Assembly (NCBI GenBank): GCA_022446905.1
Contig: JAKVBT010000007.1
Location: forward strand, 78,568 to 142,567
Reading direction: 5' to 3'
DNA length: 64,000 nucleotides
Source of the DNA: Phycisphaerales bacterium
Lineage (GTDB): Bacteria; Planctomycetota; Phycisphaerae; Phycisphaerales; SM1A02
The position numbers and the translations under genes are program-made. Below are positions 3,794-64,000 of the stretch, piece after piece; position 1 is the first letter of the stretch, and every line of letters starts with the position of its first letter. The notes beneath the pieces were generated by a model, which worked only from the letters and a program-made list of their open reading frames with translations, was not told where the DNA came from and ran no database searches.

Positions 3794-3796
3794 CGC

Positions 3797-5125: not shown

Positions 5126-5271
5126 GGCATCTCTCCTGCGCTGTGGCTGACTTCGTCTGCCGAGCCGCCCATGGTACCGAAGGCCACCCGAGTGCGGCGT
5201 TGATGCCTCAGAAACGGGGTTGAAAGTCGCTGGGTCTTGCATGCCGCACCCGTGACCATACAGTGGTGTTC

Positions 5272-6939: not shown

Positions 6940-7056
6940 GCGACTGAATTTAGGGGCCATGGGGGCTGTGCATCTTGACTGGTCGGCCTCACATGGGGAC
7001 ACTTCTTCATTCCCCCGCTCTGGCGGCCTGCCAGGCGGACTTGGAGTCCAATTCTC

Positions 7057-8436: not shown

Positions 8437-8461
8437 TTGGCCTCTGGCCACGTGGGGCGTC

Positions 8462-9487: not shown

Positions 9488-9519
9488 CGCCGCATAGCGG
9501 GCTGCACGATACTTATCAC

Positions 9520-9891: not shown

Positions 9892-9941
9892 AATGGATTC
9901 AGATCCAGCAGTTGACGACGGCGTGCTAGACTCCCGATCCC

Positions 9942-10591: not shown

Positions 10592-10593
10592 AT

Positions 10594-11337: not shown

Positions 11338-11378
11338 GACAGGTCTCCTGCGAAAGAGGACTCCGCCCTGACAACCCT

Positions 11379-12341
11379 CTACGTCCGGAAACATTTCTCC
11401 GGTTCGGACAAACTGCAAGCAACATGATGATTCTCTGACATCGCTCGCATGCCCCAATAGCAGTCAACTTCAGGCCACCAAGGCACTTGCGGCCCATCAA
11501 CCGTATGAACTTGCCAACTGCCCCGCGCTGCGGCCATCGCCTCCTGCACATCAACCAATCGCCCAGAGTCACCTTTGGGGACACACTCCAGCAGGGCAGC
11601 TGTATAGGGGTGCCCGGGCTGATCTAGAACCTCCGCTGCAGTGCCGGTCTCGACCAAGCGGCCACGCCACATCACCGCGATCTCTTGGGCCCACCCACGG
11701 ACTGCAGCAAGATCATGAGTCACCAATAAAACGCCATTGCCTCTCACACAGGTTGATGCGATTAGATCGAGCACACCCGCACGATTCACTGCGTCCAGCG
11801 CAGTTGTTGGCTCATCTGCCAATACAAGTCGGGGCTCAGCTGCCATCGCCATGGCGATCAAGACACGTTGTCGCATCCCACCACTTAACTCATGTGGAAA
11901 CGACCGCGTGACCCTATGTGTGTCTTCAATACCCACAGAAGCCAAAGCCGCATGACACCACTGTGTTGCCGCAGCCCCGCTGAGCCGCTCCAAACGACCA
12001 CGAGACTCCAGCATCTGCCGATCAATGCGCATCACGGGATCAAGTGCCGTCATGGGTTCCTGAAAGACCATCGACACGGTCCGGCCTCGAAGCTCGCGCC
12101 GGTCTTCTGACGCTAGGTCCATGCCGTCAATAAATACACGGCCACCAGCTTGATGAAGACCGCCTGGAAGCAACCCCATCACGGCAAGCGCTGTCAAAGT
12201 TTTACCACTACCTGACTCGCCGACCAACGCTGTTACTTGGCCTGATGGAACGCGAAGACTGACATCCTCAACCAATGGGCTGCCATCCTCGCGAACGATT
12301 GTGAGGCCATCAATGTGCAACGCCAGATTACTGAGTTTCAT
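11379..12341 (-). CDS. ABC transporter ATP-binding protein, OppD/DppD type
   Basis: This 320-residue ATPase belongs to the peptide/nickel (Opp/Dpp) importer family. It has Walker A GESGSGKT near residue 40, Q-loop VFQEPMTALDP, signature LSGGMRQRVLIAMA, Walker B LVLADEPTTALD and switch His VTHDLAAV. The family-typical tail GHPYTAALLECVP precedes a short C-terminus. The usual Cys-rich iron-sulfur-like tail of OppD is reduced, and a Cys-containing extension (VDCYWGMRAMSENHHVACSL) is present instead. The start overlaps the permease stop by 4 bases. No second ATPase (OppF/DppF) is next to it. Confidence 0.9.
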   Translation of the reverse strand: MKLSNLALHIDGLTIVREDGSPLVEDVSLRVPSGQVTALVGESGSGKTLTALAVMGLLPGGLHQAGGRVFIDGMDLASEDRRELRGRTVSMVFQEPMTALDPVMRIDRQMLESRGRLERLSGAAATQWCHAALASVGIEDTHRVTRSFPHELSGGMRQRVLIAMAMAAEPRLVLADEPTTALDAVNRAGVLDLIASTCVRGNGVLLVTHDLAAVRGWAQEIAVMWRGRLVETGTAAEVLDQPGHPYTAALLECVPKGDSGRLVDVQEAMAAARGSWQVHTVDGPQVPWWPEVDCYWGMRAMSENHHVACSLSEPEKCFRT

Positions 12342-13258
12342 GTTGCAACCACACGCTGCCGCGGATCGAGTCGTGTGCGTAGTGATTCACCAAGCACCAT
12401 CAATGCGGTCAATGTCACTGCAATCAACACACAGGGCCACAACAGCAACCACCAATGAGACTTCACCGGGTTCAGTTCTGACAAACCTGAGGAAGCGAGA
12501 TTCCCCCAACTTGGAAGTGGTTCACGGACTCCAATGCCAAGAAAGCTCAGGAAAGCCTCAGAGAGCATCGCCATAGGCACGACCAATGCCGTACAAGCAA
12601 TGATTGGTCCGGCAAGCCATGGAAGGTAGTAGCGTCGAATTTGCCGCGTCCATGGCACACCCGCAACACGTGCCGATTCGATAAATGGCTGCTGACGCAA
12701 GCTCAGCACCTGACCACGAACCACCCGCGCCAGCGTCAGCCAACTCACGGCACCAATGGCAATCCACAAAGTCATCAAGTCAAGCCAGAGCCGACCAGAA
12801 CCACCGAGCGTCCAGCCTGCCCGTTGACGAACACCATCTACTGCAACCGCCAAAAGCACCACCAACAAGATCGCTGGCAATCCATAGAGGATGTCGACAA
12901 TCCGCATCATCACGTTGTCAACCCGACCCGGTGACATCGCCGCAGCCAATCCCCAAGCAGTGCCCAATACCAACGCCGTCGAAGCAGCTGCAAGACCAAC
13001 CATCAACGAGATCCCACCGCCGAGCAGCAAACGTGCCATGACATCACGTCCAAGCCGATCCGTGCCCAACCACCCCTGTGGAGATGGCGGTTGTAATGCC
13101 AATGCCGGATCAGTCGCCTCAAATCGCGCCACTGGCTCACCAGCCATCTTGGGTGATAATGTCCAAGGCAGTGATGCCACGCTGGCGAGGACTATCAGTC
13201 CAAGAACCAATGCTGCCCACAATGCGGGGCTCATGCGACACACACCAAGCCGGATCAT
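12338..13258 (-). CDS. ABC transporter permease, OppC/DppC type
   Basis: This 306-residue inner-membrane permease has one N-terminal helix (OppC_N region), then WLGTDRLGRDVMARLLLGG, the typical DppC/OppC entry motif. Five further hydrophobic segments follow, with a coupling-helix region around SARVAGVPWTRQIRRYYLP. A full importer needs a DppB-type permease, a substrate-binding protein and usually a second ATPase. None is found beside it; the upstream minus-strand gene is an unrelated exported protein. The complex must be completed by genes elsewhere. The substrate (peptide, nickel or other) cannot be assigned. Confidence 0.9.
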   Translation of the reverse strand: MIRLGVCRMSPALWAALVLGLIVLASVASLPWTLSPKMAGEPVARFEATDPALALQPPSPQGWLGTDRLGRDVMARLLLGGGISLMVGLAAASTALVLGTAWGLAAAMSPGRVDNVMMRIVDILYGLPAILLVVLLAVAVDGVRQRAGWTLGGSGRLWLDLMTLWIAIGAVSWLTLARVVRGQVLSLRQQPFIESARVAGVPWTRQIRRYYLPWLAGPIIACTALVVPMAMLSEAFLSFLGIGVREPLPSWGNLASSGLSELNPVKSHWWLLLWPCVLIAVTLTALMVLGESLRTRLDPRQRVVAT

Positions 13259-13286
13259 GCGAGCACCATAGGTGACCGCGGGCCGA

Positions 13287-13910
13287 TCAGCGACCGATCA
13301 AGGTCCGCATCCGCTCATCAACACGCTGTTGAAACTGGGTTCCCAACTCGGTCATATCAGCCTCGGCCTGGGCCAGCTCTGCATGCATGCGATCAAGCAG
13401 CAGCATCTGCGTCTCTCGGGAAGCCGCCAGTTCAGCCTGCACCAAAGCCTGCAATTCGGCTTGTCGCGCTGGATTCACCGGCTGACCAGTGATTGAATCA
13501 CGACGAATCTGTGCCGCCAGTGCATCGATCGCTGCTTCCAACTGAAGTTCCTTGATCTTGCGCGAATACAGGGCCGGATCATCCTCTCGGAGTTGCACCA
13601 TCTCACCAAGCGCTGGACCAAGTTGCCGCAGAGCGCGGGCAAACTGGCTCGGGTCCAACTGACAGGTCGAACGGAGTTGCTCGGCCATACGTGGATCGAT
13701 GGCATCTGCAACCTCAAGAAAGTTGTCTACAAACTGTGATTCGTCTGCGGCATCCATGACAAAGGCCATGCTCGTCGCTGGTGTCAAACGAGCCGCTGTT
13801 GGCGAAGATAGACGGGCGTTAATCGTCTCACCGGCATGAATGACCAGCGCCACTGCCAGTATCAACATCAACCACCATATTCCTGTTGTACATCTCGTTG
13901 GCATCATCAA
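13287..13910 (-). CDS. Exported/anchored helical protein of unknown function
   Basis: This 207-residue protein begins with a hydrophobic segment (IWWLMLILAVALVIHAG) that is either a signal peptide or an anchor. The remainder is almost wholly helical and rich in Glu, Gln, Ala and Arg, with heptad-like stretches (LQALVQAELAAS, MHAELAQAEADM) suggesting a coiled coil. No Cys pairs or catalytic motifs are seen. It follows the anti-sigma-like gene by 7 bases and is probably in the same operon as the ECF sigma factor. Its arrangement downstream of a sigma/anti-sigma pair resembles periplasmic partners of such systems (for example CpxP/CnrX-like helical sensors), but that is only an analogy. Confidence 0.65.
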   Translation of the reverse strand: MMMPTRCTTGIWWLMLILAVALVIHAGETINARLSSPTAARLTPATSMAFVMDAADESQFVDNFLEVADAIDPRMAEQLRSTCQLDPSQFARALRQLGPALGEMVQLREDDPALYSRKIKELQLEAAIDALAAQIRRDSITGQPVNPARQAELQALVQAELAASRETQMLLLDRMHAELAQAEADMTELGTQFQQRVDERMRTLIGR

Positions 13911-13917
13911 GACTCCA

Positions 13918-14466
13918 TCAACCGCCCAGTCGCGCTACAACGCGAACAGCATCCAGTTCATTTTCAAACGCATCCCGGTCACGCTCCCCTTCGGAGAGCA
14001 CCAGATATGAGCCCGCCCCAGATTGAATCGCTGAGACGACGGACTCCAGTCCATCCATTGCATCGCTGTACTGCAAGGACTCCACCATTTGCAGTCCACG
14101 GAATCGATCGAATGGATTGCGGCCTTCTGATTCGGGTTGATCGAGCAACGCCACGGAAGGCATCACTGTGACCTCCGGCAGGTCCGGACCGCGGTCCACC
14201 AGCCAGAAAAGACCCCCCACCACCAAGCCCATCACCGCAGCCACTGCGAGCCGGGCGACCGGCGAGAACACCAAACGACGAGTCTGCGTCCGACGTCCAT
14301 GGCCCAAGGATGCGGTGCTGGCTTGAGCCACCCGTGCTGATAGGCCAGAAGGCACCTCGCGATGAGCCGTCACCCTCAAGAGATCGTCGATGCGTTGATC
14401 GACCTCATCAAGGCGTGGATCGGCCGGCTCATCTGGAGGTTGCCAAGCTGGAGGAGAGTGTGTCAT
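13918..14466 (-). CDS. Putative membrane anti-sigma factor
   Basis: This 182-residue protein starts at the ATG at 14466, preceded by TTGGAGA at 8-base spacing; the frame opens 30 bases further up. The cytoplasmic N-terminal ~80 residues are acidic then basic, and one membrane helix (LAVAAVMGLVVGGLFWLV) separates them from a ~90-residue periplasmic tail. This topology and its position 43 bases downstream of an ECF sigma gene are what an anti-sigma factor would show. A zinc-binding HxxxCxxC motif is absent. Family membership is therefore inferred from context. Confidence 0.65.
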   Translation of the reverse strand: MTHSPPAWQPPDEPADPRLDEVDQRIDDLLRVTAHREVPSGLSARVAQASTASLGHGRRTQTRRLVFSPVARLAVAAVMGLVVGGLFWLVDRGPDLPEVTVMPSVALLDQPESEGRNPFDRFRGLQMVESLQYSDAMDGLESVVSAIQSGAGSYLVLSEGERDRDAFENELDAVRVVARLGG

Positions 14467-14509
14467 TGCTATGTCTCCAACGGCCCTGCGGGCCATCTAT
14501 TGCACCCCA

Positions 14510-15133
14510 TCAGGCCCCACCTTCTAAGAAATCAGCTCCAAAATCGTCTCCAAGCGTCTCTCGGAGCCGTTTGATGGCCCGAAAGTGGCGGGCGAGCACC
14601 GTCCCGGTCGGATGATCTAATAAATCAGCGATCTGCTTGAAACTCAGGCCGGCGACATGACGCAGATGAAGCACCTGTTGATCGGCTTCGCTCAGGTCCG
14701 CCACAGCCGCCCAGAGATCACGAGCCACATCCTCCTCAATCTTCTCGTGGCGTGCTCGGTCCTCCCGACCAGATCGATCCAATGGGGTAAAGACCTCTGA
14801 TTCGACCGGCATCGCCTGCCGCTTTCGTCGCCGCATTTCGTCTCTGAGGCGGTTCATGGCGATACGGAAGAGCCACGACTCGAATCGCCCCTGATCGACA
14901 TAATCCGCCAATTTGGCCGCCACAGTGCAAAAGGTGGATTGTGTGATCTCCTCTGCCAAATCGTGGTCATGGCAATTGGACACCAGCAATGCGTGCACCC
15001 GTGGTGCCCAGGCATGGACGAGATCACACCATGCCTGATCATCACCGGCGACCGCACGGTCGAGCAGCATCTTGACGTCGTGGCTTTCCAGGTCGGTACT
15101 CCAGACCGAAAGAACTCCGTGTTTGATCGGCAC
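14510..15133 (-). CDS. ECF-family RNA polymerase sigma factor
   Basis: This 207-residue sigma-70 family protein of the extracytoplasmic function type has a region 2 (LAEEITQSTFCTVAAKL...RFESWLFRIAMNRLRDEMRRRKR), an acidic linker, and a region 4 helix-turn-helix (LSEADQQVLHLRHVAGLSFKQIADLLDHPTGTV...AIKRLRE). The start is GTG 15133 with AGGG a short way upstream; an in-frame ATG at 15070 would remove a poorly conserved N-terminus. It is the first gene of a minus-strand set with the membrane anti-sigma candidate and an exported helical protein. ECF operons usually autoregulate. No target promoter could be defined by eye. Confidence 0.9.
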   Translation of the reverse strand: MPIKHGVLSVWSTDLESHDVKMLLDRAVAGDDQAWCDLVHAWAPRVHALLVSNCHDHDLAEEITQSTFCTVAAKLADYVDQGRFESWLFRIAMNRLRDEMRRRKRQAMPVESEVFTPLDRSGREDRARHEKIEEDVARDLWAAVADLSEADQQVLHLRHVAGLSFKQIADLLDHPTGTVLARHFRAIKRLRETLGDDFGADFLEGGA

Positions 15134-15165
15134 TTGAGCCCTGGCTACTACAATCCGCTGGCCTC

Positions 15166-16212
15166 ATGCTGGCTATGTCACCAGTCACCACCGCATCAAT
15201 GCCCCCCATCGATCTCTGGGTATCGATTGGCTTGGTAACCATTGGACTGGCGGCCCTGCTCTTCGGCGGCCATCTCTTGGTCACAGGCGCCGCTGGCATC
15301 GCCAAACGCCTTGGTGTGTCTGGTTTGCTGATTGGACTCACCGTCGTAGCCTTTGGCACCAGTGCACCGGAACTGGCTCTGAATGTGACCGCGGCGGCCA
15401 GTAGTCCTGCCGGCGTCGAACTCGCGTTCGGCAATGTAGTTGGATCCAACATGGCCAACATCGGCCTGGTGCTGGGCTTGGCCTGCCTCGTGTCCCCCAT
15501 CATCATTCGTGGGCAAGTGCTGCGACAGGACCTTCCACTGCTGATTGGCGCTGAAATGGTCATGATCGCGATGGCGTGGATGACCCCAGGCATTGATCGC
15601 CTTGGAGGCATCATCCTGCTCGTGGGCATGATTGGCGTATCGATATTGTGGTTTCGCAATGCGCAAGCGCACGCAGATGATGCCCTGACGATCGAAGCAG
15701 AAAGCTTGGCCATCCAAGAGCCGACTTTGAAGTGGTGGATGGCGGTGAGCCTCGTGCTCTCAGGGCTGGCGCTCCTGCTGAGCGGCGCCAAAGCCGCCGA
15801 AATTGGCGCTGTCGCCGTGGCTCAATATGCCGGTGTGGGCGAAGTAGTGATTGGCCTGACCATCGTGGCCATTGCCACAAGTCTTCCTGAAGTGGCTACC
15901 GCCGTAATCGCGGTGCGCAAGCATGAGTCTGACCTCGCAGTCGGCGCTGTGGTCGGTTCGAACTTGTTCAACATTCTGCTGGTGCTCGCATGCACCGCCC
16001 TGGTACGTCCTATCCCTTTACCGGAAGGTCATAGCGACTGGACGCTGATCATCATGCTTGCGCTCACACTGGCCCTCTACCTCGGACCGATCCGACGACA
16101 GACATCCAGAAATGGGCACAGTGAGTTTGAGAGCCAACTGGGACGCGCGTGGGGCGGCAGCGTCCTCACCATATGGGTATTGGTCATGATCTGGACCATA
16201 CTGAGAGCCTAA
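15166..16212 (+). CDS. Calcium/sodium antiporter (CaCA family, YrbG-like)
   Basis: This 348-residue inner-membrane protein has ten or so hydrophobic helices arranged as two inverted halves. Each half carries the alpha-repeat signature: GTSAPELALN with GNVVGSNMANIG in the first, and ATSLPEVATA with GAVVGSNLFNIL in the second. These are the ion-binding Glu-containing motifs of K+-independent Na+/Ca2+ exchangers. The start may be 15166, 15175 or 15199; the last fits best with the first membrane helix. It is divergent from the sigma factor gene 33 bases away. Confidence 0.9.
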   Translation: MLAMSPVTTASMPPIDLWVSIGLVTIGLAALLFGGHLLVTGAAGIAKRLGVSGLLIGLTVVAFGTSAPELALNVTAAASSPAGVELAFGNVVGSNMANIGLVLGLACLVSPIIIRGQVLRQDLPLLIGAEMVMIAMAWMTPGIDRLGGIILLVGMIGVSILWFRNAQAHADDALTIEAESLAIQEPTLKWWMAVSLVLSGLALLLSGAKAAEIGAVAVAQYAGVGEVVIGLTIVAIATSLPEVATAVIAVRKHESDLAVGAVVGSNLFNILLVLACTALVRPIPLPEGHSDWTLIIMLALTLALYLGPIRRQTSRNGHSEFESQLGRAWGGSVLTIWVLVMIWTILRA

Positions 16213-16224
16213 TGGCTCTTCGCC

Positions 16225-17739
16225 TCAGATTGGAAGATCGTCTCCAGCCTGGGGGCCTGCTGGCGGCGGTACTGTTGGCGCACTCCACGAAGACGCCGCG
16301 TAAGACTCTGAACCACCACGAGGTGCCGTCTCGACATACTCATTGAAACGTGTCGATCGGGAATCCCAAACCAACTTCACGGTGCCTGTTGGGCCGTTTC
16401 GTTGCTTCGCGAGAATCACTTCTGCCAAATTGACTTTGTCTGGATTCTCATCGCGCCATTCTTCATCGTGATGGTAATACGCCTCACGATGCAACATCAT
16501 GATGACATCCGCATCCTGTTCAATAGAACCTGATTCACGCAAGTCACTCATGCGGGGACGGTGGCCTTCACGCTGCTCAGCAGCACGATTGAGCTGACTG
16601 AGACACACCACAGGAACGTCGAGCTCGCGTGCCATGGCTTTGATGCCACGACTAATGTCGCTGACCTCCTGCTGACGAGATTCGTTTCGATGTCCAGATG
16701 TCATCAACTGCAGATAGTCAATGACGACACAGGACAGCCCATGTTTCTGCTTCATTCGGCGAGCCTTGGCCCGCAACTGAAGAAGTGTCAGGCCTGGGGT
16801 ATCGTCGATGTACATCGGCACATCGCGCAGTTCATCACAGGCTGCGAATAGTGCGCGGAACTCTGCCTTGCGAAGTGCATTGCGACGCAGTCGATCTCCA
16901 TCAATTCCAGCACGACTGGAAAGAATGCGCTGCACCAATTGGGAAGCGCCCATTTCAAGGCTAAACACACCCACAGCCTCGCCTCGCGTGACCATGTTCT
17001 CTGCAATGTTGATCGCCAGTGCCGTCTTCCCCATAGATGGACGAGCTGCGAGGATGATCATCTCGCCACGCTGAAAACCACCGGTGTAATGGTCCAGTTC
17101 GCTGAAGCCACTGGCAATACCAGTCAGCGGCTGCCCGTCGGAATCCTCAATCCGGGCAATGGCATCTCGAATCAGGCCGGTCAGATCCATGGCTTGTCTT
17201 GACTCTGCCTGCTGTGCGATCTTAAAGATCTGCTGCTCAGCATCGTCAAGAAGTCCTGAGGTGGACTCTGGATTCGTGTACGCACTACGAAGCATGTCAC
17301 CAGCAGCGCCGATCAACTGTCGCAACATCGACTTGTCGCGGACAAGTCGCGCATAGTGCACCGCGTTGGCTGCACTTGGCACAGAGCCAGCCAATTCGAC
17401 TAGATAGTCCAATCCTCCAACCCGTTCCAGAACACCGCGATCTTCGAGAATCTGCTGCAGTTGCACTACATCAACCGACTGATGGGTGTCGTACAGATGC
17501 ACAATCGCCGTCCACAGATCACTGTGCGCTGGTCGATAGAAGTCATCGGCACTCCGGATGATCTGAAGCACATCACCACATGCCTCAGGCGAGAGAATCA
17601 CGGATCCCAGCAGACTCATTTCAGCCTCAACAGCACTTGGGGGCAGCGCGTTGAACAGCTCGGCTAACGATCGGTCGTCGCGTGATTCGCTTCGTTGCTT
17701 GGGCGATCTGGTCGCGGGGCCGTTCACTACTTCAATCAC
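16225..17739 (-). CDS. dnaB: Replicative DNA helicase DnaB
   Basis: This 504-residue hexameric 5'-3' helicase acts at the replication fork. It has an N-terminal DnaB domain (PPSAVEAEMSLLGSVIL...) and a RecA-like domain with Walker A ARPSMGKTA (K238), FSLEMGASQLVQR (motif H1a), Walker B-like CVVIDYLQLM, and CLSQLNRAAEQREGHRPRMSDLRESGSIEQDAD. The C-terminal ~40 residues are low-complexity and Pro-rich. A GTG at 17739 preceded by AGCAGGAAGG is taken as start; an upstream GTG at 17769 has no ribosome site. No intein is present. Confidence 0.95.
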   Translation of the reverse strand: MIEVVNGPATRSPKQRSESRDDRSLAELFNALPPSAVEAEMSLLGSVILSPEACGDVLQIIRSADDFYRPAHSDLWTAIVHLYDTHQSVDVVQLQQILEDRGVLERVGGLDYLVELAGSVPSAANAVHYARLVRDKSMLRQLIGAAGDMLRSAYTNPESTSGLLDDAEQQIFKIAQQAESRQAMDLTGLIRDAIARIEDSDGQPLTGIASGFSELDHYTGGFQRGEMIILAARPSMGKTALAINIAENMVTRGEAVGVFSLEMGASQLVQRILSSRAGIDGDRLRRNALRKAEFRALFAACDELRDVPMYIDDTPGLTLLQLRAKARRMKQKHGLSCVVIDYLQLMTSGHRNESRQQEVSDISRGIKAMARELDVPVVCLSQLNRAAEQREGHRPRMSDLRESGSIEQDADVIMMLHREAYYHHDEEWRDENPDKVNLAEVILAKQRNGPTGTVKLVWDSRSTRFNEYVETAPRGGSESYAASSWSAPTVPPPAGPQAGDDLPI

Positions 17740-17860
17740 ACCCTTCCTGCTCGCACTGGACCACGCCACGATCTACAGCGATGGAATCCACTGTTACATA
17801 GTCCTCTGTTTTGAAACCCAACTCAAGCGTTGACCAATGAATTGGGCAACTTGACTTCCC

Positions 17861-18214
17861 TCAACAGGAGGCTGAGGCCTCTTCAGGAATGTCAGCGGTG
17901 AACTCAATCTCATCATCAATCTCGAGCCCATTGGCCTCTACCGCCATCCGCATCAAACGACCGACCTTGAACTTGACCGTTCGACGCGCGGGAACCGGAA
18001 CACGCTCGAGTGTGCGTGGATTCTGCGCCACGCGTGCTGCACGGGCCTTGGTTTCAAAGACACCAAAGTCACGAAATTCGAGTCGATTACCTTCACCAAG
18101 TTCTTGGATCACATGATCAAGAAAAGATTGAACCACAGTCTTCACATCGGACCGCTTCAGGTCGGTTCCATCAGCGATGCGTTCAACGAGATCCTTTTTG
18201 GTGATGGTGCCCAT
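17861..18214 (-). CDS. HU/IHF-family nucleoid DNA-binding protein
   Basis: This 117-residue protein carries the bacterial histone-like HU/IHF fold. It opens MGTITKKDLVERIADGTDL, has the dimer core DVKTVVQSFLDHVIQELGEG, and then RLEFRDFGVFETKARAARVAQNPRTLERV, in which the 'RxxRxARNPxTg'-like DNA arm is recognisable. The C-terminus is longer and more acidic than HU (about 25 extra residues ending EEASASC). The ATG at 18214 follows AAAGGA at good spacing. It shares a ~250-base divergent promoter region with trkA. Confidence 0.92.
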   Translation of the reverse strand: MGTITKKDLVERIADGTDLKRSDVKTVVQSFLDHVIQELGEGNRLEFRDFGVFETKARAARVAQNPRTLERVPVPARRTVKFKVGRLMRMAVEANGLEIDDEIEFTADIPEEASASC

Positions 18215-18465
18215 CAGGCCATCCTTTCCCCACTGTGCCACAAGGCTGACTCGCGATCATCAGCAGACCGACCGTGAAGCCGCCCATGCGTCGCTCGCCG
18301 TAATCCACCTCGACACGAGGGCGGTCCAGAACCGGCGTGCAGAGACCAGTATGGGGGATCGCCCCACACCCGTCAAGGCAACAGGCAGAGGACACCTGAA
18401 AGGGTGAATCAAGTGTGGACAGAGGCCCGAGTACACTGCTCCCAGCGGACCAGGAGAGGCCAATT

Positions 18466-19815
18466 ATGGACATCATCCTCTGTGGTGGCGGTGAAATCGG
18501 GGGTATCGCAGCCGAAACACTGTCCTCGGCAGGTGATAGCGTCACTTTGATTGACATCGATGAGGCTCGCTTGGAATACCTCGAGAAGCATCTCGATGTC
18601 GCAGTACTCCATGGATCTGCCAGTTCAGCAGCCACCCTGCGGGCAGCCGGTGCAGCCTCGGCTGATGCAGTGATCGCAACAACCAATGTCGATGAAGTCA
18701 ACCTAGTGATCTGCGACATCGCTGCAACACTTGGCGCCCAGCGTACGCTCGCCCGAATCGACCACTCGATGCTGCTTGGAGATGAGCAGCTTGATTACGC
18801 TTCGATCTTTTCAGTGGACCGGCTTTTTTCTCCGGATCGAGCCATGGCGTCCTTGATGGCCTCGCGCCTCCGTCATCCCGCCGCTATTGCGATTGAGCAG
18901 TTCGCCGGCAGCACCATTGAGCTTCAACAGTTTGTCGTGGATGCACGCGCCCGAGGTGTTGGTCTGCCACTGCAAGCTTTAGCGTTGCCAAATGGAACAC
19001 GCGTAGCAGCAGTGACCCGCGATGGTGAGTCGAAGCTGCCTTCGGCGGAAACCACTCTGCAAGGCGGCGACCTTGTGACCATCGTGGCTCATAATAAGTC
19101 AATGGCTGAAGCACGCAGCATGCTTGCAGCGCCGCACTATGGCCGTACGAGCGTGGCCATCTCGGGCGGAACCGCATCGGCTGTCTGGCTGTGCCAGATG
19201 TTGGATGCACGCGACTTTGATGTACGTGTCTTTGAACCAAATCGCCAGCGAGCGGAGCAACTTGGCGCCTTGCTGGATCATGTCACGGTGTTGTGCGCTG
19301 ATGCTGGAGTTCCCGAAACCTTCGATGAAGAGCATCTTGATCAGGTCGATGCCTTCGTTTCGATGCGATCCGATGAGCGGAATATGCTGGCATGTGCGTA
19401 TGCGCTTAATCGCGGCGTTGACCTGGTCATGCCTGTTGTACGACAACGTGAATTTGTGCCGCTCATGCATCAACTTGGCATGCGATTGACTTGGAGCCCG
19501 AATACTGCGGCCGTACAGACGATCCGACGATTCGTCCACTGCAATGAGTTTGAGCGACTAGAAGGCATTTTTGAAGGCACGCTCGATGTGATCCGCCTGC
19601 GCGTTGGCGCAGGCGCTCCACTCATCGACCGCACACTGGCTTCTCTCGGCATCGACACACCAATGGTCATTCTTGCAACAGAAGATCGACTTGGAAATCC
19701 AATCGTCCCTGGTCCAGACATGACCATCGCTGCGGGCCGAACCATGATCATCATTACGACCAGAGATCACACCACAAAGATCAGAACTCTGTTCGCAGCG
19801 GAGTCGAACCGGTGA
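18466..19815 (+). CDS. trkA: Trk potassium transporter regulatory subunit TrkA
   Basis: This 449-residue peripheral protein gates the TrkH channel. It contains two tandem TrkA_N (RCK/NAD-binding) plus TrkA_C units, as in E. coli TrkA. The first Rossmann glycine motif reads ILCGGGEIGGIAAE with the acidic strand end TLIDIDEARLEYLE; the second unit begins SVAISGGTASAVWLCQML. The ATG at 18466 is preceded by AGGAGAGG at 6 bases, and the open frame upstream of it is ignored. The stop overlaps the trkH start, so both subunits are translationally coupled. Confidence 0.93.
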   Translation: MDIILCGGGEIGGIAAETLSSAGDSVTLIDIDEARLEYLEKHLDVAVLHGSASSAATLRAAGAASADAVIATTNVDEVNLVICDIAATLGAQRTLARIDHSMLLGDEQLDYASIFSVDRLFSPDRAMASLMASRLRHPAAIAIEQFAGSTIELQQFVVDARARGVGLPLQALALPNGTRVAAVTRDGESKLPSAETTLQGGDLVTIVAHNKSMAEARSMLAAPHYGRTSVAISGGTASAVWLCQMLDARDFDVRVFEPNRQRAEQLGALLDHVTVLCADAGVPETFDEEHLDQVDAFVSMRSDERNMLACAYALNRGVDLVMPVVRQREFVPLMHQLGMRLTWSPNTAAVQTIRRFVHCNEFERLEGIFEGTLDVIRLRVGAGAPLIDRTLASLGIDTPMVILATEDRLGNPIVPGPDMTIAAGRTMIIITTRDHTTKIRTLFAAESNR

Positions 19816-54843: not shown

Positions 54844-55392
54844 TTATTGAGGAGTTGATGGCCCGCGACCGACCTGGACGACACGTTGGCCTGGCTGTGC
54901 CTCAACGACAGGCCCACCCTCGATAGCCAGAAATCGGGCTGTCACATTCGCCGCAAGCGCTGGCATCCGATCCCCGCCATTCTGTCGGAGATCAAGCGCA
55001 AAGCTATACCCAGGAAGATCAAACACTGCTGGCCCGGCGGCGGCAGCTGACTGCTGCTGATTAAATGTCCAAACTCGCCAAGGTCGCTCAATTGACTCAT
55101 CTAAGGGCTGCAGTTCGAACTCGAAGACCCCCGGCACCAACACCGGATCATTGCCCTCAATCAAAACCGCTGTCACATCGATGGTATCCGGATAGCCATC
55201 TGCATCTGTATCTCGCGGTTTCGACCTAATCATGACCGCCATTTGCTCAGCGCGATTCGCATGACGCAGTGGCACTGTCTTTGGTTCTGGCCGCGCAGAC
55301 ATTTTGGGTTTCGGGGAAGGTGGTGCAGAGGGCGACTGGACGGTTTCACACCCTGCAGCAACCACGAAGGCAATAAGCGCCAGACGTTTCAA
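54844..55392 (-). CDS. Small lipoprotein candidate coupled to the giant secretin gene
   Basis: This 182-residue protein starts at TTG 55392, overlapping the stop of the secretin gene. The N-terminus MKRLALIAFVVAAGCETV shows a lipobox (A-A-G-C) for signal peptidase II. The mature part is Pro/Lys-rich, then a compact beta-rich domain (DTDADGYPDTIDVTAVL...GVFEFELQPLDES...). By position and type it could be a pilotin or accessory lipoprotein for the secretin. Direct pilotin similarity (AspS, GspS, PilF) is not evident. Confidence 0.65.
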   Translation of the reverse strand: MKRLALIAFVVAAGCETVQSPSAPPSPKPKMSARPEPKTVPLRHANRAEQMAVMIRSKPRDTDADGYPDTIDVTAVLIEGNDPVLVPGVFEFELQPLDESIERPWRVWTFNQQQSAAAAGPAVFDLPGYSFALDLRQNGGDRMPALAANVTARFLAIEGGPVVEAQPGQRVVQVGRGPSTPQ

Positions 55393-58300
55393 GGAGATGA
55401 TTCCACCGGGAGATCGCTGGGGGTGATGGCCTCTTCCAAATCGCGAATCTTTAAGTCATAGCCCTCTTGATCAAAGAGACCTTGCTTGTCCAACTCGCCA
55501 GTCTTGATTTTGTCAAGGAGTGTTGGCGGCAATGTCAAACGATCAACCTGCTGATCTGTCATCACTCGGATTTCTTCCAACTGCGTGGGGCTCGTGACCA
55601 CATGCGGCGTGAGCACAATTACCAATTCCGTCCGATCAAGCTGCTCGTTCACGCTCGTAAACAACTTCCCAAGCAATGGAATGTCCCCCAAAATTGGGAC
55701 CTTGTCTTCCCGAAATTCATAGGTCTCATTGATCAATCCACCAATGACGATCGTCTGGCCATCACGTACCGTGACCGTTGTATCAGCCGTTCGTTGGATG
55801 ATGCGCGGCGTATTCACACCAACAGCAGGTTGATCGAAGGTGGCACCCAACTTTGACAACGTCGGCTTGACCTCCATGCGCACATACCCATCGGGATTAA
55901 TCGAAGGCGTCACACTCAAGATGACACCAACTTCCTTTTCCTGCAACGGCACACTCGTCAGGCCCGTGTCGTAAGTCGTTGCTCCGACCGGAACGTAGAT
56001 GATTTCTCCTACATTGATATTGGCAGGCTCGTTATTGGCTGCCATGATCGAAGGATTGCTCAAAATATGTAGCCTGCCTTGATTCTCCAATGCTCTCAAG
56101 ACAACATTGAAGTCCAACGCACCTAATGTAAGTGAAGGCAACCCAGCTGCAACAACCGGGGAAAACGACGCGAAGTTCCAGTTGCCAATACCAATCGAGG
56201 GGTCGACACCCCAATCAACACCACCATCGAGCGACACCTCTGCAAGCAATACTTGAATAAGGACCTGCGGCGGATCGACATCCAGTTCTTTAATCAGTCC
56301 CTGGATACGTTCCATGTACCGGGGACTGGCACTGACCAACAGAGAATTGGACTTGTCATCCCCCCGGATCGTCACTTCCCGCTCGAGCAGACGCGCTGCC
56401 GAGCCAAGTTGGTCAACGCCGATCGTCTCGATCAACTTCTGCTGCTCGGTCTCAACAAAGTCACCAAGCACCGAAGCGACTTCACTCGCAGTGGCATTTC
56501 GCAACTGGTAGAGATGCGAGTCTCGCTCATTGGCCTTTGCAGAATCAAGTTCATCAATGACCGATTCAACAAGATCCAGATACGCGGGTGTTCCAGACAC
56601 AATCAAGCTATTTGTACGACTGTCGACGGTGATGGCAAGTTGTTGGCGAGGATCGGGAACAGCGGTCAACTCGGTGCCGCCAAAGTCCCCACCCATGCCC
56701 TCAAGACCATCGGCCATGCCAGACAAGTCCTGCCCGTCGCGAGGCTTGAGAACCAACAGATCGTCGCCCTCGTCGAGCCTGAAGAGGTCTTTGAGAAGCA
56801 CTGACATCGCTGCGGCGTCGGCATTATCCAATTTGAAAATACGGACGTTCTTTGAACCCACCGAGGATTCATCAAGATCTCGAATCATGTCTTCGAGCAT
56901 GTCCATGGAATCCGCTGGCGCCTTGATAATGACCGTGTTGGTTCGCACATCTGGAGTCAGGTTGATGGACTCTCGCAATGCAGTGCTGACCTGCATCTCC
57001 TGGCCTTCACCGAGATCCTCATTTGATCGCACATAACGCAGCACGGTCGCACGTTCCGCGCGCCGCCCACGTCCAAGACCCCGGCCAGAGAGCACATCCT
57101 CAATCAGCCGCACAGTCTCGAGCGCATTGGCGCTGGTCAATGGCACGTGCCGAATCTCCACTACAGATGAAGGTGCTGTACCGTCAAGCCGACCAATCAG
57201 TGAACTGATTTCTCGAACATCTGACTCGGAGGCGCTGACCATAACGGCATTGAGTTGTTCATCAGCAGTCACGCGAACTGTTCCTGAACCACGCAGCCGA
57301 TTGGCCTCGCGCACGTACAGATCATCAAGCATGTCAACCATGGCCCGCGCAGAAGTCACCTGAAGGTGGAAAACCTCGAGTTCGCGACCGAACCCACGCT
57401 CTGACTCCGCCTGCTCAAGCATGCGAAGGAAATCTTCAATGACGACGAGATTTTCACGGCTGGCCGCCACAATCAGGCTGTTGGACACATTGTCCGATTG
57501 AATAGACACACGATCCGTTGGTGTTGATGCTTCACCAAGACTCTGCTGTCGATCACGCATCAGCCGCTCGATTCGAGGGGCGAGATCTGCGGCCTGAGCA
57601 GCTCCATTGACTGCCAGCAAATTCAGTCCAATCGCCGGATCTGTCGGCGCGTCTGAAAGTCGCCGAATCAGATCTCGAATGTCATCAAGATCCTCTGGTC
57701 CCGCAGACACCAGCAAACTGTTGGATCGACTGTCAATCTGAATCAATGGCATCTGGGCGCGACGAGAGGCCGGAGGAAGATCGATGTATCGACGCTCCAT
57801 CACCGCATTGACCGTCTCAGCCACACGCGATGCGTTGTTGTCACCTGCATCGATCACTTCAATCAGGCCACGCTGCACGAGGTCTGATCCATCAAGATCC
57901 TTGACCAATCGCCCAACAACCTCGAACGCATCCTGACCACCAGCAACGATTAGTGAATTGGTGCGTTCATCAGACATCACCGTCACACGTTGCAGTTCTG
58001 CCGTCTTTTGGTCCACAACTCGAAGTCGAGCAAGCCGCGCATCCATCATCCTCTGAACAACGTTTTGCATGCGTGCCGACGTGGCGTGCTCCAACGGGAA
58101 GCTACGAATCTCTGCATAGTCAGCAGTTAACTCAGAGTCCAGCGACTGAATGATTGGCTCAATCACAGCAAATGACCTGCTGCTAGTCGCCACGATCAAA
58201 GTATTGGTCCGCTCATCTGTCTGGGCAACCACCCGATCTTCGCGCTCGAGGATCCCCGCAGATACCTGCCCATCGACCAAACGAGTCACAGTTGTCGCAA

Positions 58301-61300
58301 TCTGAGAGGCCGCCCCATGATCGAGCGGATAGAAACGCACACTAGATGCAGGCGATGCCTCTTCAACATCCAACATCGCTACGAGTTCCCCTGCAATATC
58401 AAGATTGTCTTGGGTGCCGACCAGCAGGAGTGCATTGAGTGTGTCATGCGGCAAGACAACCAACTCATGCATCGGTCGGAATACGTCCGATTCGGCGACA
58501 CTTCGCTGATCAGATCGCAACATCCGCATCCGACCCACTTGCTGACGCATCGCCGATGCACTCGGCGCTGCATCAGTGCCATCAATGAGCACACGGGTCA
58601 GCATGGCGGCCGTCTCAATGGGGTCAGCCCACTTGAGACGAACCAGTTGCGTATCTACCCAGCCCGTAGTGACGTCGGAATCAAGTCGGTCGACCAATAC
58701 CTCAACAGTCGACACTGCATCTTCCGTGCCAGCGACTACAACTGTATTGGTGGTCTCATGTACCGTCATAGCGACATCACCCATGAGGGCTCGCCCCACA
58801 ATGCTTGATGGAATGCCCATCCACCCCCGCTTGCCCAGCCCGCCCAGACTCTTGCCTTGACTGAACAGTTCGCGAACCACGCGAGCAAAGTCTGACGCAG
58901 CCAAGTTGTCTAGCGGAAGGATGCGCACGATCACGGAATCAGACAATGGCAGTTCATCGAGCAGATCCACCAGCGCAACAATGGCGTTTAAATTGTCTGG
59001 AGTCGAACTGATCAACAATGCGTTCTGTGTCTCATGCGTTGTAATACTGATAGGGCGTGTTAAGTCCAGTGCAATGTCTGGATCATGCACGCCATCACCC
59101 AGCATGGACAACCGGCGAATCTGTTCCTGCACCGCTCTGGCCCGAGGCGATGTGGTCTTCTGTGAGGATGGATCGAGCATGTCGCGCAAAACAGAAGCCA
59201 CTGCTTCAGCCTGCGCATTCTTCAACTGCACGAGTTTCAACATTGCATCAGCTGAATCCGGCTCTGAATCCATCGACTTGAAGAAGGCACTCAAAGCGTC
59301 ACGGTCTGCAGGGTTGCCTAGCACCATCAGTGCATTGCGCCCTGGAAGTGCGGTGACGGTAATCGGATCCGTCACGATGCGTTGCGCTGCACTATCTCTT
59401 GCTGGCCTGTTGAGACCCAACTCCTGCACCACCCGCCGCGCCTCTTCAGAGGTCACACGTTGTAGGTCAATAATGAACACCCCTTGATTGACTGGCGGTG
59501 CCAGGCGATCAAACTCATCGATCATTCCAGAAATGACAGCCATCGATCGCGGGGGAGCGGTCACCAGCAGACTGTTGCTCCGCGTATCAGCGAGCACTCG
59601 ACCTTCGACGACAATGGAAGTCCCGCCATCTGGATCGTTCAGGACGATGGGCTGACCATCGAGACTTAGTGCTTGCCTGAGTAGATTCGCGGTATCAGCT
59701 GCTTTAGCGGACTTGAGCACGAAGGTCTGCACAGATGACGCGGCGTCATCAGCAGAGTTCACCGAAGCAAGCATGGATTCAATCTCTGAATGCTCTTTGG
59801 ACGTGCCTACCACGATGATTTGGCGGCGATTGGAGTCAACGCGAACTTGCAACTCGTTGGAAGATGCTGACCGCCACCATGATCGCCGCTGAGTCCCAAA
59901 TGCAGTTTCGATCAATTCCGACATCAAGTCTGCAGACCCACGTGGCACTCGATAGACCTTAATGGTCCTCGCCAATGTCGGCGCAGCTGGCTGGTCAAGC
60001 ACCGAGACAACCTGTTCAACAGAGTCAAATGCAGCGCCATAACCAGTCACCACGATGGCATTCGTGCGCTCGTCGGCCATGATCGACACCTTGCTCTTCG
60101 GTGCCTTGCGATTGCGCGACCCCATGAGCCAGATATCGCCATAGAGCAGATTATTAACCATCGACTCCACATCCCCCGAGACTGCAGCGGCCTTTGCATG
60201 CTGCAGAGGGAAGACGCGAATTTCATATTGCTCATTACCAGCACCCACATCCAGTTGGGCAACCAGTGACTGAATGGCTTGATAATCCTCATCGTTGGCC
60301 GCTACGAGGAGCACCCGGTCTGCTGCTTCTCCCTGAATTGTTACACGACGCTGTTTAGAGCCTGCAATACGAGCACGATCGTCATAGAGACGCTGCAACG
60401 CTTTGGCAACATCAGCGGCGTCGGCACGTTCAAGTCGAATGGTCCGAACCGCGTACTCAACGCTCGCATCCCGATCAATCTCAGCAAGCACTGCATCGAT
60501 CTCCCGAGACGTTTCTTCGTCAGCCCGCACCAGAAGTAGACCAGATGCATCATCAGGAACAATGACCACCGAACTTCCTTTAGCGCCTGATGACGCAATG
60601 ACTGTGCTCTGCAACAAGCGGGCTGCCTGAGATGGCCGCGCTTGCTTCAGCGCGATCGTACGCAGCGGCGGAAGCGATTCACTGGTGGGGACATCGAGCT
60701 GCTTGAGCAAAGAAGCAACTTCCTTGAGTTGTGACTGGTCCGCAGTCACCAATAAAGCATTGGTTCGCTCGTCATACGAAACATCCGGCTGGAGTTGAAC
60801 TGCACCAGTCTTCGCAACCGCGTAATAGCGGGCCCGCAGGACATTCCGCAGCATCGATGAAAGCGGCCTTGCCGCGGCATGTTCGAGCGGGAAGATCTGC
60901 AGAGTGGGCGCTGATGCCACAGGCGACTGATCCATGAGTTCCACATAGCGATCAATAAATGGAATGGCTTCGGTCGGTGACATCACCACCAAAGAACCAC
61001 TTCCACTGTCGGCGCTGACCTGAATCCGGTCAGGACGGAAAGCCGCCTCCACAGCATCCTCGCCACCCATCATGGTGACTGCGAGATGACGCATGCGGCC
61101 TGCCTGCCGACTTGCACTGGTTCCACGAAGCAACTCCTGCAAGTTCCTGGCAATTCTTGATGCCGCACCGTTGGTCAACGGGTAGATCTTCACGATCGCT
61201 GATTGATCGTTGTTTGAAACGCCTACTGCTTTGATGATCTGAGTAACCGACTCAAAATCCGAATCGGTGGCTGAGACGATCATGGCGTTGGTGTCTACGT

Positions 61301-64000
61301 CGGGAATGATGCTCACGCGTCGAGTTAAATCGCCGCGGCGACCGGCGGTGGGTGTGATCTGTGCCATTGCCTGCTGAACCAATCGCGTCAGGCGTGACGC
61401 ATCGGCACGGTCACCCAACTCAATCCGATGCAGGCGACCAGCCTGCTTGGGCATCTGTGAGCGTAGCTGCTCCAGCAGCCGCCGTACCTGCTCCACACTG
61501 CGGCGACTACCCACAAGCACAAGGCTATTGGTCTCTGCATCAACAGCAATCGACACCGCCGGCGAATCCCCAACTGCTTCCACGCTCGCCTGAACCGCTC
61601 CAATCGCCGCCATGACAGGAAGCCAACGAGGAGACCACAACATGGCCCCAGGCACAGGACCATCAGCACCAAGTAAGTCCTCAATGTTAATAACTCGAAT
61701 AGCAGGCCCACCATCACGGTTCAGCATGCGGCGGAGTGTCTCTGCCAGCTCACCTGCGTCACCTTGTGCCGGGTCAATTGGAATCAACTGCATCTGACGA
61801 CTTGATGTCATCGCCGCTGCATCCACCGAACCAACAACCTGGTCAATCAACTGCATCTGAGCGTCATCTGCACGCACGAGCAGCGTTCCACTTGACTGAT
61901 CCACTCGCACAACTGGTGGCAACTTCGACTGATCATCGGCAAAGACCGCTTCAATGCTGACTGCCAGCGATGTCGGATCAGCGTGCTGTACATGAATCAC
62001 TCTGACGGCCCGCGCTGTTCGATCTTCTTGATCTCCAGCAACGGCATCCAACTGCCGGACCATCTCTTCAGCCGCATCAACTGCCGGAGCGAGACCGGCA
62101 ATAACGACTGCATTCAAACGCTCGTTTGCAACCACGCGAACGCCAATGCCCTGATCAGGCAATGGGATGCGATAACGAAGCCGCTGGAGTCGTTCATATT
62201 CATTGAGCGATTCCAAGCCCATGAGCGACTGCATCATCGCCGCCACCTGATCCGCCCGAGCATGGTCGAGATGCACCATTCGGACCTGTTGCTCATCAAA
62301 GGATTCGCCTGTATCAAGCTGGCTGATCACTGACTTCACATAGTCGACCTGGGGTTCAGTACCGGTCACAATGACTGCATTGCTTGCTGCCACAGCAGAC
62401 ACATTGGCCTGTGGTCGACCTGGCTCAAACATCGAGCGGGCTTGGATCGCTCGCTGGACAGAAGCTGCCACATCCACTGCTGACGATCGCGCCAAAGGAA
62501 CAACTTCAACCGTTGCCTGATTGGGAACATCCAGCGCCTTGACCAATTCTGCAAGCAGTGATTGCTGACGAGTCGTCGCTGTAATGCCGACAGCATTGAT
62601 GTCTGTGAGCGACGACACATGCGGTGGCGCACCCTCAGACGCAACACCTTCGTGCAGAGACGCAAGATCCGCCAGTCGAATCGCCGCCTCCTCGGGCTCA
62701 ATATGTCGAAGCGTCAAAATGCGGGTGACTGGGGCTGGTCCTGCCAACTCGATGTATCGGCGCAAAGCCTGTTCGTAGAGTCGAACACCCTCAGTATGCC
62801 CACTGATCACCACGCGACGCCCAGAGCGATCTGCCTCAACGTTGGGGCGATGAAGACTGCCCTCCCCGCCACCCATCTGCACAAAGGCCTCATCAGCCTG
62901 CGAAATGGCATCTTCCTGAGCTCCAGAAAGTGGAATCACCCGCACCTGAAAGTCCCCGGCTTGTGGCTGATCAATTGAGCTCACAATCGTGGTGATGGAA
63001 GACATATCTGTGGGAGATGATGTGACAACCAGTGCATCAATCAAATCGACTGCTTCAACCTGCGGCGGTGTCCACGGGCTGCCATCTGTTGGCGAAAGCA
63101 TTGCACGCGCCGCAGTTGACACACTTTTCGCGACACGAGATGGACGAACATGCTGCAAATCGAACCGACGAGTGACACGCTCCTCCAAGATGCCCTCTGC
63201 AATGGACTGCAGGAAAGCAGCCCGATCAGCAACCGTTTCTGGGTTCCCAACAAGCTCAATCACATCATGAGCTGGGTCCGCGCGGACAACCACATCGTCA
63301 GTCAGGTCATATTGCTCCAACATGTCAGCATGACGCTGCATGACATCATCAATCGCTCCGGGGCGTAGCTTCAAACGGCGAATCGCCGGGGCTGCTGCTG
63401 GAGACACATCGAGGGCAGCGATCATGGCAGCAGCATGGGCGACCCGATCTAATGGGCCTGCAAGCACAATCGCCCGGGCATCAGGCGTGGGTGCCATGCG
63501 GACAGCAGCCCGCTGCGATGGCAGCAAGGCAGCATTGAGCGAAGCCATGACTTGGGCAGGAGTTGCGTCTTCAACAGCAACAACTTCGACCGTCTGAGTT
63601 CGCATAAGCCCGGGTGAACCATCGAGTTCCGCTACTACAGCCGCCAATTCCGCTACGCGAGTCGAGGGGCCTGTCATGATGATGCTGGATCGCTCTGGCA
63701 GCGGAAGCACCTGAGGCCGCTCGCCATCAGGCATAGACATGATCACACCATGCAGTCGCTGCGTCGCATCGGCAGGCGAGAGCGTGTTCAACACCAGAGT
63801 CCTGGTCGAACGACCACCGGCAGAGGTGGAACCCTCCGAACCTGCCACATCAAGCAGTTGAATGATCTCACCGAGTTTGTCCAAGAGCGGACGGGAACCT
63901 TTTGCAATGATCAAGCCAGCGCGATCATCCGCTGTAAATGTCAGGTTGCCCATAGTGGTCTCTTCGACCTTCACAAGCTTGCCCTTCTTATCTGGTCGAT
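55389..64000 (-). CDS. Giant secretin with ~31 tandem N-domain modules (N-terminus cut by window edge)
   Basis: The frame runs open to the right edge, giving at least 2,870 residues; the first in-window start-like codon (GTG 63974) is internal. The C-terminal ~300 residues (DNA ~55389-56290) form a typical secretin channel: VLIQVLLAEVSLDGGVDWG, HILSNPSIMAANNEPANINVGE, VGVILSVTPSINPDGYVRMEV, VTVRDGQTIVIGGLINE, and KVPILGDIPLLGKLFT, then a short tail. GspD/PilQ normally have three to five N-domains; here ~31 secretin_N/NolW-like modules of ~80 residues precede the channel. Each module ends like DxRTNSLIVxxxxxxxxxIxxLIxxLD. The stop overlaps the lipoprotein gene. No N0/signal part is visible. 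Function as an outer-membrane channel is inferred from the family. Confidence 0.88.
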   Translation of the reverse strand, partial: RPDKKGKLVKVEETTMGNLTFTADDRAGLIIAKGSRPLLDKLGEIIQLLDVAGSEGSTSAGGRSTRTLVLNTLSPADATQRLHGVIMSMPDGERPQVLPLPERSSIIMTGPSTRVAELAAVVAELDGSPGLMRTQTVEVVAVEDATPAQVMASLNAALLPSQRAAVRMAPTPDARAIVLAGPLDRVAHAAAMIAALDVSPAAAPAIRRLKLRPGAIDDVMQRHADMLEQYDLTDDVVVRADPAHDVIELVGNPETVADRAAFLQSIAEGILEERVTRRFDLQHVRPSRVAKSVSTAARAMLSPTDGSPWTPPQVEAVDLIDALVVTSSPTDMSSITTIVSSIDQPQAGDFQVRVIPLSGAQEDAISQADEAFVQMGGGEGSLHRPNVEADRSGRRVVISGHTEGVRLYEQALRRYIELAGPAPVTRILTLRHIEPEEAAIRLADLASLHEGVASEGAPPHVSSLTDINAVGITATTRQQSLLAELVKALDVPNQATVEVVPLARSSAVDVAASVQRAIQARSMFEPGRPQANVSAVAASNAVIVTGTEPQVDYVKSVISQLDTGESFDEQQVRMVHLDHARADQVAAMMQSLMGLESLNEYERLQRLRYRIPLPDQGIGVRVVANERLNAVVIAGLAPAVDAAEEMVRQLDAVAGDQEDRTARAVRVIHVQHADPTSLAVSIEAVFADDQSKLPPVVRVDQSSGTLLVRADDAQMQLIDQVVGSVDAAAMTSSRQMQLIPIDPAQGDAGELAETLRRMLNRDGGPAIRVINIEDLLGADGPVPGAMLWSPRWLPVMAAIGAVQASVEAVGDSPAVSIAVDAETNSLVLVGSRRSVEQVRRLLEQLRSQMPKQAGRLHRIELGDRADASRLTRLVQQAMAQITPTAGRRGDLTRRVSIIPDVDTNAMIVSATDSDFESVTQIIKAVGVSNNDQSAIVKIYPLTNGAASRIARNLQELLRGTSASRQAGRMRHLAVTMMGGEDAVEAAFRPDRIQVSADSGSGSLVVMSPTEAIPFIDRYVELMDQSPVASAPTLQIFPLEHAAARPLSSMLRNVLRARYYAVAKTGAVQLQPDVSYDERTNALLVTADQSQLKEVASLLKQLDVPTSESLPPLRTIALKQARPSQAARLLQSTVIASSGAKGSSVVIVPDDASGLLLVRADEETSREIDAVLAEIDRDASVEYAVRTIRLERADAADVAKALQRLYDDRARIAGSKQRRVTIQGEAADRVLLVAANDEDYQAIQSLVAQLDVGAGNEQYEIRVFPLQHAKAAAVSGDVESMVNNLLYGDIWLMGSRNRKAPKSKVSIMADERTNAIVVTGYGAAFDSVEQVVSVLDQPAAPTLARTIKVYRVPRGSADLMSELIETAFGTQRRSWWRSASSNELQVRVDSNRRQIIVVGTSKEHSEIESMLASVNSADDAASSVQTFVLKSAKAADTANLLRQALSLDGQPIVLNDPDGGTSIVVEGRVLADTRSNSLLVTAPPRSMAVISGMIDEFDRLAPPVNQGVFIIDLQRVTSEEARRVVQELGLNRPARDSAAQRIVTDPITVTALPGRNALMVLGNPADRDALSAFFKSMDSEPDSADAMLKLVQLKNAQAEAVASVLRDMLDPSSQKTTSPRARAVQEQIRRLSMLGDGVHDPDIALDLTRPISITTHETQNALLISSTPDNLNAIVALVDLLDELPLSDSVIVRILPLDNLAASDFARVVRELFSQGKSLGGLGKRGWMGIPSSIVGRALMGDVAMTVHETTNTVVVAGTEDAVSTVEVLVDRLDSDVTTGWVDTQLVRLKWADPIETAAMLTRVLIDGTDAAPSASAMRQQVGRMRMLRSDQRSVAESDVFRPMHELVVLPHDTLNALLLVGTQDNLDIAGELVAMLDVEEASPASSVRFYPLDHGAASQIATTVTRLVDGQVSAGILEREDRVVAQTDERTNTLIVATSSRSFAVIEPIIQSLDSELTADYAEIRSFPLEHATSARMQNVVQRMMDARLARLRVVDQKTAELQRVTVMSDERTNSLIVAGGQDAFEVVGRLVKDLDGSDLVQRGLIEVIDAGDNNASRVAETVNAVMERRYIDLPPASRRAQMPLIQIDSRSNSLLVSAGPEDLDDIRDLIRRLSDAPTDPAIGLNLLAVNGAAQAADLAPRIERLMRDRQQSLGEASTPTDRVSIQSDNVSNSLIVAASRENLVVIEDFLRMLEQAESERGFGRELEVFHLQVTSARAMVDMLDDLYVREANRLRGSGTVRVTADEQLNAVMVSASESDVREISSLIGRLDGTAPSSVVEIRHVPLTSANALETVRLIEDVLSGRGLGRGRRAERATVLRYVRSNEDLGEGQEMQVSTALRESINLTPDVRTNTVIIKAPADSMDMLEDMIRDLDESSVGSKNVRIFKLDNADAAAMSVLLKDLFRLDEGDDLLVLKPRDGQDLSGMADGLEGMGGDFGGTELTAVPDPRQQLAITVDSRTNSLIVSGTPAYLDLVESVIDELDSAKANERDSHLYQLRNATASEVASVLGDFVETEQQKLIETIGVDQLGSAARLLEREVTIRGDDKSNSLLVSASPRYMERIQGLIKELDVDPPQVLIQVLLAEVSLDGGVDWGVDPSIGIGNWNFASFSPVVAAGLPSLTLGALDFNVVLRALENQGRLHILSNPSIMAANNEPANINVGEIIYVPVGATTYDTGLTSVPLQEKEVGVILSVTPSINPDGYVRMEVKPTLSKLGATFDQPAVGVNTPRIIQRTADTTVTVRDGQTIVIGGLINETYEFREDKVPILGDIPLLGKLFTSVNEQLDRTELVIVLTPHVVTSPTQLEEIRVMTDQQVDRLTLPPTLLDKIKTGELDKQGLFDQEGYDLKIRDLEEAITPSDLPVESSP
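56290..63974 (-). repeat. Tandem array of about 31 secretin N-domain modules (protein-level repeat)
   Basis: By eye I count about 31 successive modules, each with an opening strand-helix (xxVRxxxLxxAxAxxVAxxLxxL), a variable loop, a strand with D-(E/S)-R-(T/S)-N-(S/A)-L-(I/L)-V-(S/T/A)-(A/G), and a closing helix ending LD. Modules average about 83 residues; several have inserts (for example before 61.6 kb and near 56.7 kb). Nucleotide identity between modules is low, so this is an old, diverged expansion, not a recent DNA repeat. Confidence 0.85.

Follow-up and report, generated by a model that had tools for sequence, protein, structure and literature searches.

A giant secretin gene at the edge of the window

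The window, a stretch of 64,000 nucleotides (contig positions 78568-142567) from the genome of an uncultured planctomycete, 2.58 Mb in 79 contigs, ends inside a very long open reading frame on the minus strand, which encodes a secretin and is followed by a small lipoprotein gene. The features relevant to this locus are:

5272-6939, plus strand: GspE ATPase, away from the operon; its orthologues track the giant secretin
54844-55392, minus strand: downstream lipoprotein of 182 aa with a lipobox and a DTDxxGYPD motif
55389-64000, continuing to 64724, minus strand: giant secretin gene, with an open frame reaching the window edge
55569-56126, minus strand: secretin channel domain, residues ~2867-3052; PF00263 at 169.9 bits
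56277-64000, running on to 64265, minus strand: N-module array, residues 154-2816, 32 modules
61464-61799, minus strand: module 12, a long-insert module whose homologue is the split site in the relatives L088, L091 and L105

A first-pass annotation of the same DNA had placed the start of the secretin gene outside the window, and on the continuing contig it was located 724 bp further on. The complete gene thus spans window positions 55389-64724 (L002:957-10292, minus strand), and its product has 3111 aa. From the N- to the C-terminus the protein consists of a signal peptide, a GspD-type N0 domain, 32 Secretin_N modules, one secretin channel and a short tail, with the signal peptide, the N0 domain and module 1 being encoded beyond the window edge, up to position 64724. 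The N0 domain, modules and channel together cover 87% of the chain, and the modules are separated by linkers with a median of 8 aa, although several modules are weak or contain long inserts.

The profile searches suggested with the first-pass annotation matched both expected domains and bear out its description of one C-terminal channel preceded by a long array of Secretin_N-like modules: PF00263 was found in a single copy (169.9 bits against a Pfam cutoff of 27.5), while Secretin_N (PF03958) reached 789 bits over 29 stretches. Iterated HMMs counted 31 and 32 modules, and an HMM trained solely on the modules of other species also found 32, but detected none in 50 of 50 shuffled sequences of the giant secretin. 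The earlier estimate of about 31 modules agrees with these counts, since 30 lie wholly within the window, one more straddles its edge and the full protein has 32. An AlphaFold model of N0 and modules 1-9 consists of repeated beta-alpha-beta-beta-alpha units (pLDDT 80.4, pTM 0.41); the last eight modules with the channel were predicted more poorly (pLDDT 69.5, pTM 0.32). In both models the inter-module confidence is low, as reflected by these pTM values, and the interdomain geometry differs from that of GspD, with an rmsd >10 A over several domains.

A variant form of the type II secretion system GspD

By sequence and predicted fold, the giant secretin is almost certainly a GspD, the outer-membrane secretin of type II secretion systems (T2SS). 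The N0 domain matches PF21305 with 28.2 bits (cutoff 27), and its fold superimposes on the N0 of ETEC GspD with a Z-score of 10.9 and an rmsd of 2.7 over 80 residues. Profile matches of the C-terminal part are best for PulD (5e-68), followed by PilQ (4e-38) and InvG (2e-18), the NCBIfam model TIGR02517 (gspD) scores 821.6 bits against a cutoff of 351, a score that is inflated by repeated matches, and T2SS secretins top the Foldseek ranking for both AlphaFold models. The protein therefore has the N0 domain of a GspD, GspD as its closest secretin, and T2SS platform, ATPase and pseudopilin genes to go with it; a PilQ-type channel is not its nearest relative, the PilQ matches being far weaker than those to GspD. 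Where it departs from GspD is the usual order of N0 followed by N1-N3, which is typical of the family, yet not demanded by the family models: here 32 modules follow N0, and the protein is therefore classed as a variant form of the T2SS GspD. The initial reading as a secretin stands, and can be sharpened to a GspD whose gene ends a T2SS gene cluster.

This operon has the order F-G-H-I-J-K-L-M-D-lipoprotein, with the giant gspD in the D position and, upstream of it, F, G, three more small pseudopilin-like genes (designated H, I and J chiefly from their position), and K-like, L-like and M-like genes; the gene order is common to the intact giant loci examined. GspG clears the T2SS equivalog cutoff (97.7 vs 88.85), and the L-like protein resembles PilM structures (~1e-12). 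The M-like (GspM/GspC-like) protein has 314 aa, with a single membrane segment, a linker rich in proline and a small terminal domain, for which a resemblance to the GspC HR domain or PilP was suggested by eye; a profile search against the PDB gave no significant match to the HR domain.

The start of the lipoprotein gene overlaps the stop of the giant secretin gene, and a Pfam search with the 182-aa product returned no match. In Phycisphaerae the gene after the giant secretin encodes a lipoprotein with a DTDxNGYPD-like motif, and in most Verrucomicrobiota examined one is found at the same position with weaker scores, while none was detected in the three 3-module operons. This lipoprotein is a possible pilotin or accessory protein. 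Its motif, DTDxNGYPD, is calcium-loop-like and accompanies the expanded secretins.

The GspE encoded at 5272-6939 is likely to be the cognate ATPase of the system. Of the 21 genomes that carry the giant secretin, 20 have a GspE orthologue (E <1e-150), and the one without is a 72%-complete assembly; the window GspE is 52% identical to that of G029, where the gene lies directly upstream of gspF. A close GspF orthologue is present in all 21 of these genomes, as well as in the fragmented assemblies G004 and G007. Four members of the window genome's genus (G001-G003 and G008) were found to lack the giant secretin together with the GspF and GspE that belong to it; the system is therefore gained or lost as a unit.

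Distribution and evolution of the array

The window genome and 40 relatives were searched, and an orthologue of the giant secretin was found in 21 of the 41, with several members of the same genus being without one. The smallest intact orthologue has 23 modules in 2559 aa (G011), that of G020 has 55 modules in 5086 aa, and the overall range is 23-63 modules and 2559-6169 aa in Phycisphaerae and Verrucomicrobiota. The largest secretin encountered, L174 (minus strand, ~444-18950; G366), has 63 modules in a 6169-aa open frame. In a sample of the class, 160 of 396 genomes match the giant secretin at E <1e-150, and seven single-contig genomes (G017, G034, G335, G362, G486, G519 and G551) contain giant frames of 3776-4933 aa. 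Nearly all of the best 80 loci from a scan of named genomes are labelled Planctomycetota or Verrucomicrobiota, and in the two Verrucomicrobial records with matchable contigs GspF lies ~8 kb upstream of the giant. One record labelled Cyanobacteria (L126, RHKP01000005.1) also contains a giant secretin and is probably a mislabelled planctomycete bin. Homologues in other Phycisphaerae, which the first-pass annotation had proposed to look for, are therefore present with 23-63 modules; the planctomycete setting that it assumed holds for the carriers in Planctomycetota, but is too narrow, since the protein also occurs in Verrucomicrobiota.

Other planctomycete families have secretins with 7-9 modules (~1250-1500 aa) or 11-12 modules (~2200-2330 aa); in L155, L156 and L157 of family f66 (2221-2331 aa) only the 11-12 modules were detected, leaving much of the chain unassigned. 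An ordinary 3-module GspD is found in some relatives, two of which (G032 and G036) carry it within the same kind of operon. In a tree of the channel domains, the giants from Planctomycetota and Verrucomicrobiota, together with the 7-12-module clade, are placed apart from the 3-module GspDs and the PilQ-like proteins with an SH-aLRT of 88, which gives moderate support to the node joining the giants with the 7-12-module clade. The Verrucomicrobial giants nest beside some of the planctomycete ones, so that common descent and transfer are both possible. The module order of a planctomycete and a Verrucomicrobial giant agrees far beyond that of shuffled modules (z = 13).

Modules inside one protein are only ~26% identical to each other, and the array is therefore old; a recent repeat expansion in the window genome was rejected, the best within-protein module pair being 39% identical. 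Between species, by contrast, modules pair by position: 50/50 between G034 and G025, 37/37 between G031 and G027, and 32/32 between the window genome and G006, the latter with an additional four-module block. Block duplications of two, three and five modules were seen in relatives. In the relative pairs tested, each quarter of the array has a dN/dS of 0.07-0.20. The number of modules is 50 in all f2 genomes counted and 37-38 in f4, and this steadiness within a lineage suggests that array length matters, with shared ancestry contributing. Blocks of modules would be gained or lost in frame, after which array length would stay fixed within a lineage.

Giant secretins encoded by two genes

In three loci of one clade (L088:1141-13822, L091:44-11988 and L105:1199-13717) the giant is encoded by two adjacent genes, which are all split at one site inside the module homologous to the long-insert module 12. 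The first gene ends with the first half-module (model positions 1-31), whereas the second gene has its own signal-peptide-like start, followed by the second half-module (positions 30-64); joined in silico, the halves score 25-37 bits as one module. Families f79 and f80 also have the giant as two genes, split inside a module ~14 modules from the channel, where intact relatives have a long low-complexity insert, and the second gene again begins with a signal-peptide-like start. This split is clear in L171-L173 and L177 from alignment to the intact relatives, and weaker in L175. Here the joined half-modules gave no score as one module, so that the f79/f80-type split rests on the halves themselves and the alignment. 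Signal peptides of the split genes were judged by eye and hydrophobicity. At the level of sequence, the retained halves suggest that the two chains of split giants meet by rebuilding one module. Since there are two splits in different modules, with halves kept on both sides, an ordered stack explains them more readily than a loose tether, and the split genes provide natural domain-complementation experiments.

A proposed periplasmic tube of stacked rings

We propose, with a probability of about 0.6, that the extra modules form a stack of rings, and thereby a periplasmic tube with a length of the order of 100 nm. The N0 end would contact the inner-membrane platform through the 314-aa GspM/GspC-like protein, as in ordinary GspD, and the C-terminal domain would form the outer-membrane channel. 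Each module would pack laterally against the same module of the neighbouring subunits, resulting in a stack of ~33 rings, inside which the pseudopilus would act, moving cargo over an unusually wide or invaginated periplasm. With a ring height of ~2.5-4 nm, which is our own estimate, the 32 modules would contribute ~80-130 nm, so that the tube of the window protein would measure very roughly 80-130 nm and that of the 63-module relative up to ~2x as much. For comparison, PulD has four N rings and a length of 20 nm, and GspC binds to its N0 (PMC6882859). The PilQ of Thermus thermophilus has six rings and measures 35 nm; these rings are reported to let it reach across most of a wide periplasm (PMC5745081). 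Planctopirus limnophila, which is not known to carry a giant secretin, was described as having strongly invaginated membranes and a huge periplasm (PMC5394234).

Ring stacking, as well as subunit number, tube length, the periplasm-spanning role and cargo, is inferred. Stacking is favoured because the linkers are short, the modules are conserved by position, the half-modules of split genes are complementary and the six-ring T. thermophilus protein provides a precedent; it is also favoured by the constant module number in f2 and the even purifying selection, although the constant number may reflect shared ancestry instead. Whether the model extends to a whole T2SS class is an even bet: this class would be widespread in Phycisphaerae and Verrucomicrobiota, with a continuous tube of ~25-65 stacked rings and a length of ~80 nm to >200 nm, the ring number being tuned to envelope depth, and some lineages would join two separately exported chains via a split ring domain.

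Comparison with known secretins

Secretins are among the best-studied bacterial machines. The giant shares with ordinary T2SS GspD the N0 domain, the Secretin_N modules, the one C-terminal channel and a gene that closes an operon of pseudopilin and platform components, but has 32 modules after N0 (23-63 in relatives) rather than about three. At 3111 aa, it far exceeds the secretin family mean of 555 +/- 151 aa (PMC4827864). T. thermophilus PilQ likewise has an extended N-domain stack, as the giant would have, ahead of one channel; however, it forms six rings from 757 aa and serves a type IV pilus and competence, whereas the giant has 33 N-type domains and belongs to a T2SS operon. Six N rings were called an unusual number in 2017 (PMC5745081). 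The 3-module GspDs of G032 and G036 lie in the same kind of operon (E, F, pseudopilins, L-like, M-like, then D), but have 809-818 aa, with gspE within the cluster and no downstream lipoprotein detected. The 7-12-module planctomycete secretins also have extended arrays and join the giants in the channel tree, but are shorter (~1250-2330 aa), the joining branch having an SH-aLRT of 88. A full-text search of open-licence PMC papers returned no description of a giant secretin of such build, in line with the first-pass annotation, which knew of none.

Arrays of 23-63 modules, present in two phyla, would make these the largest of all proposed secretin assemblies. The series of 3, 7-12 and 23-63 modules in related systems offers a natural test of ring number against envelope-spanning length, and the giant arrays bear on protein movement over a deep periplasm in bacteria with unusual envelopes.

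Alternative readings

The most serious, though unlikely, alternative to the stacked tube is a flexible tether, in which N0 and the channel-proximal modules form rings, while the remaining modules, like beads on a string, connect the pore with the inner membrane over a variable gap. The low predicted inter-module order, the long low-complexity inserts of some modules and the flexibility of the N-module of ordinary T2SS secretins (PMC10550240) fit this arrangement; however, a tether should permit exchange and drift, whereas module identity is kept by position across species under even selection, and the split genes retain complementary half-modules. Less probable still is a docking array, with modules acting as periplasmic binding sites that gather or sort many cargo proteins and tube length being secondary. 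That the modules are strongly unlike each other (~26% identity) and yet position-conserved looks as if each had its own partner, but such a pattern fits specific contacts between adjacent rings as well, and no link to cargo was found. It is improbable that the protein is a secretin of the type IV pilus kind, belonging to a surface appendage like the crateriform structures of planctomycetes, which in P. limnophila link the membranes and bear fibres (PMC5394234). The L-like protein does match PilM, but GspG exceeds the T2SS equivalog cutoff (97.7 vs 88.85), the operon includes a GspK-like gene, and the match to T2SS secretins is much stronger than that to PilQ, with the PilQ-like secretins forming a separate branch.

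An assembly artefact, a gene fusion or a decaying pseudogene, for which one could cite the 79-contig assembly of the window genome and the frame breaks in some relatives, was rejected as extremely improbable, since intact giants are present in seven single-contig genomes as well as in many independent assemblies, the giant has a single channel, its modules are too diverged for a misassembled repeat and pair singly with those of other species, and dN/dS of 0.07-0.20 in relatives indicates purifying selection that is even along the array; for the family, the single-contig genomes and the selection also effectively dispose of the assembly error fusing several genes that the first-pass annotation had considered. 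In L044 (G039), L087 and L117 (CP053450.1) the giant is broken into overlapping frames, with no signal peptide after the frame breaks in L044; these breaks are probably assembly frameshift errors or decay.
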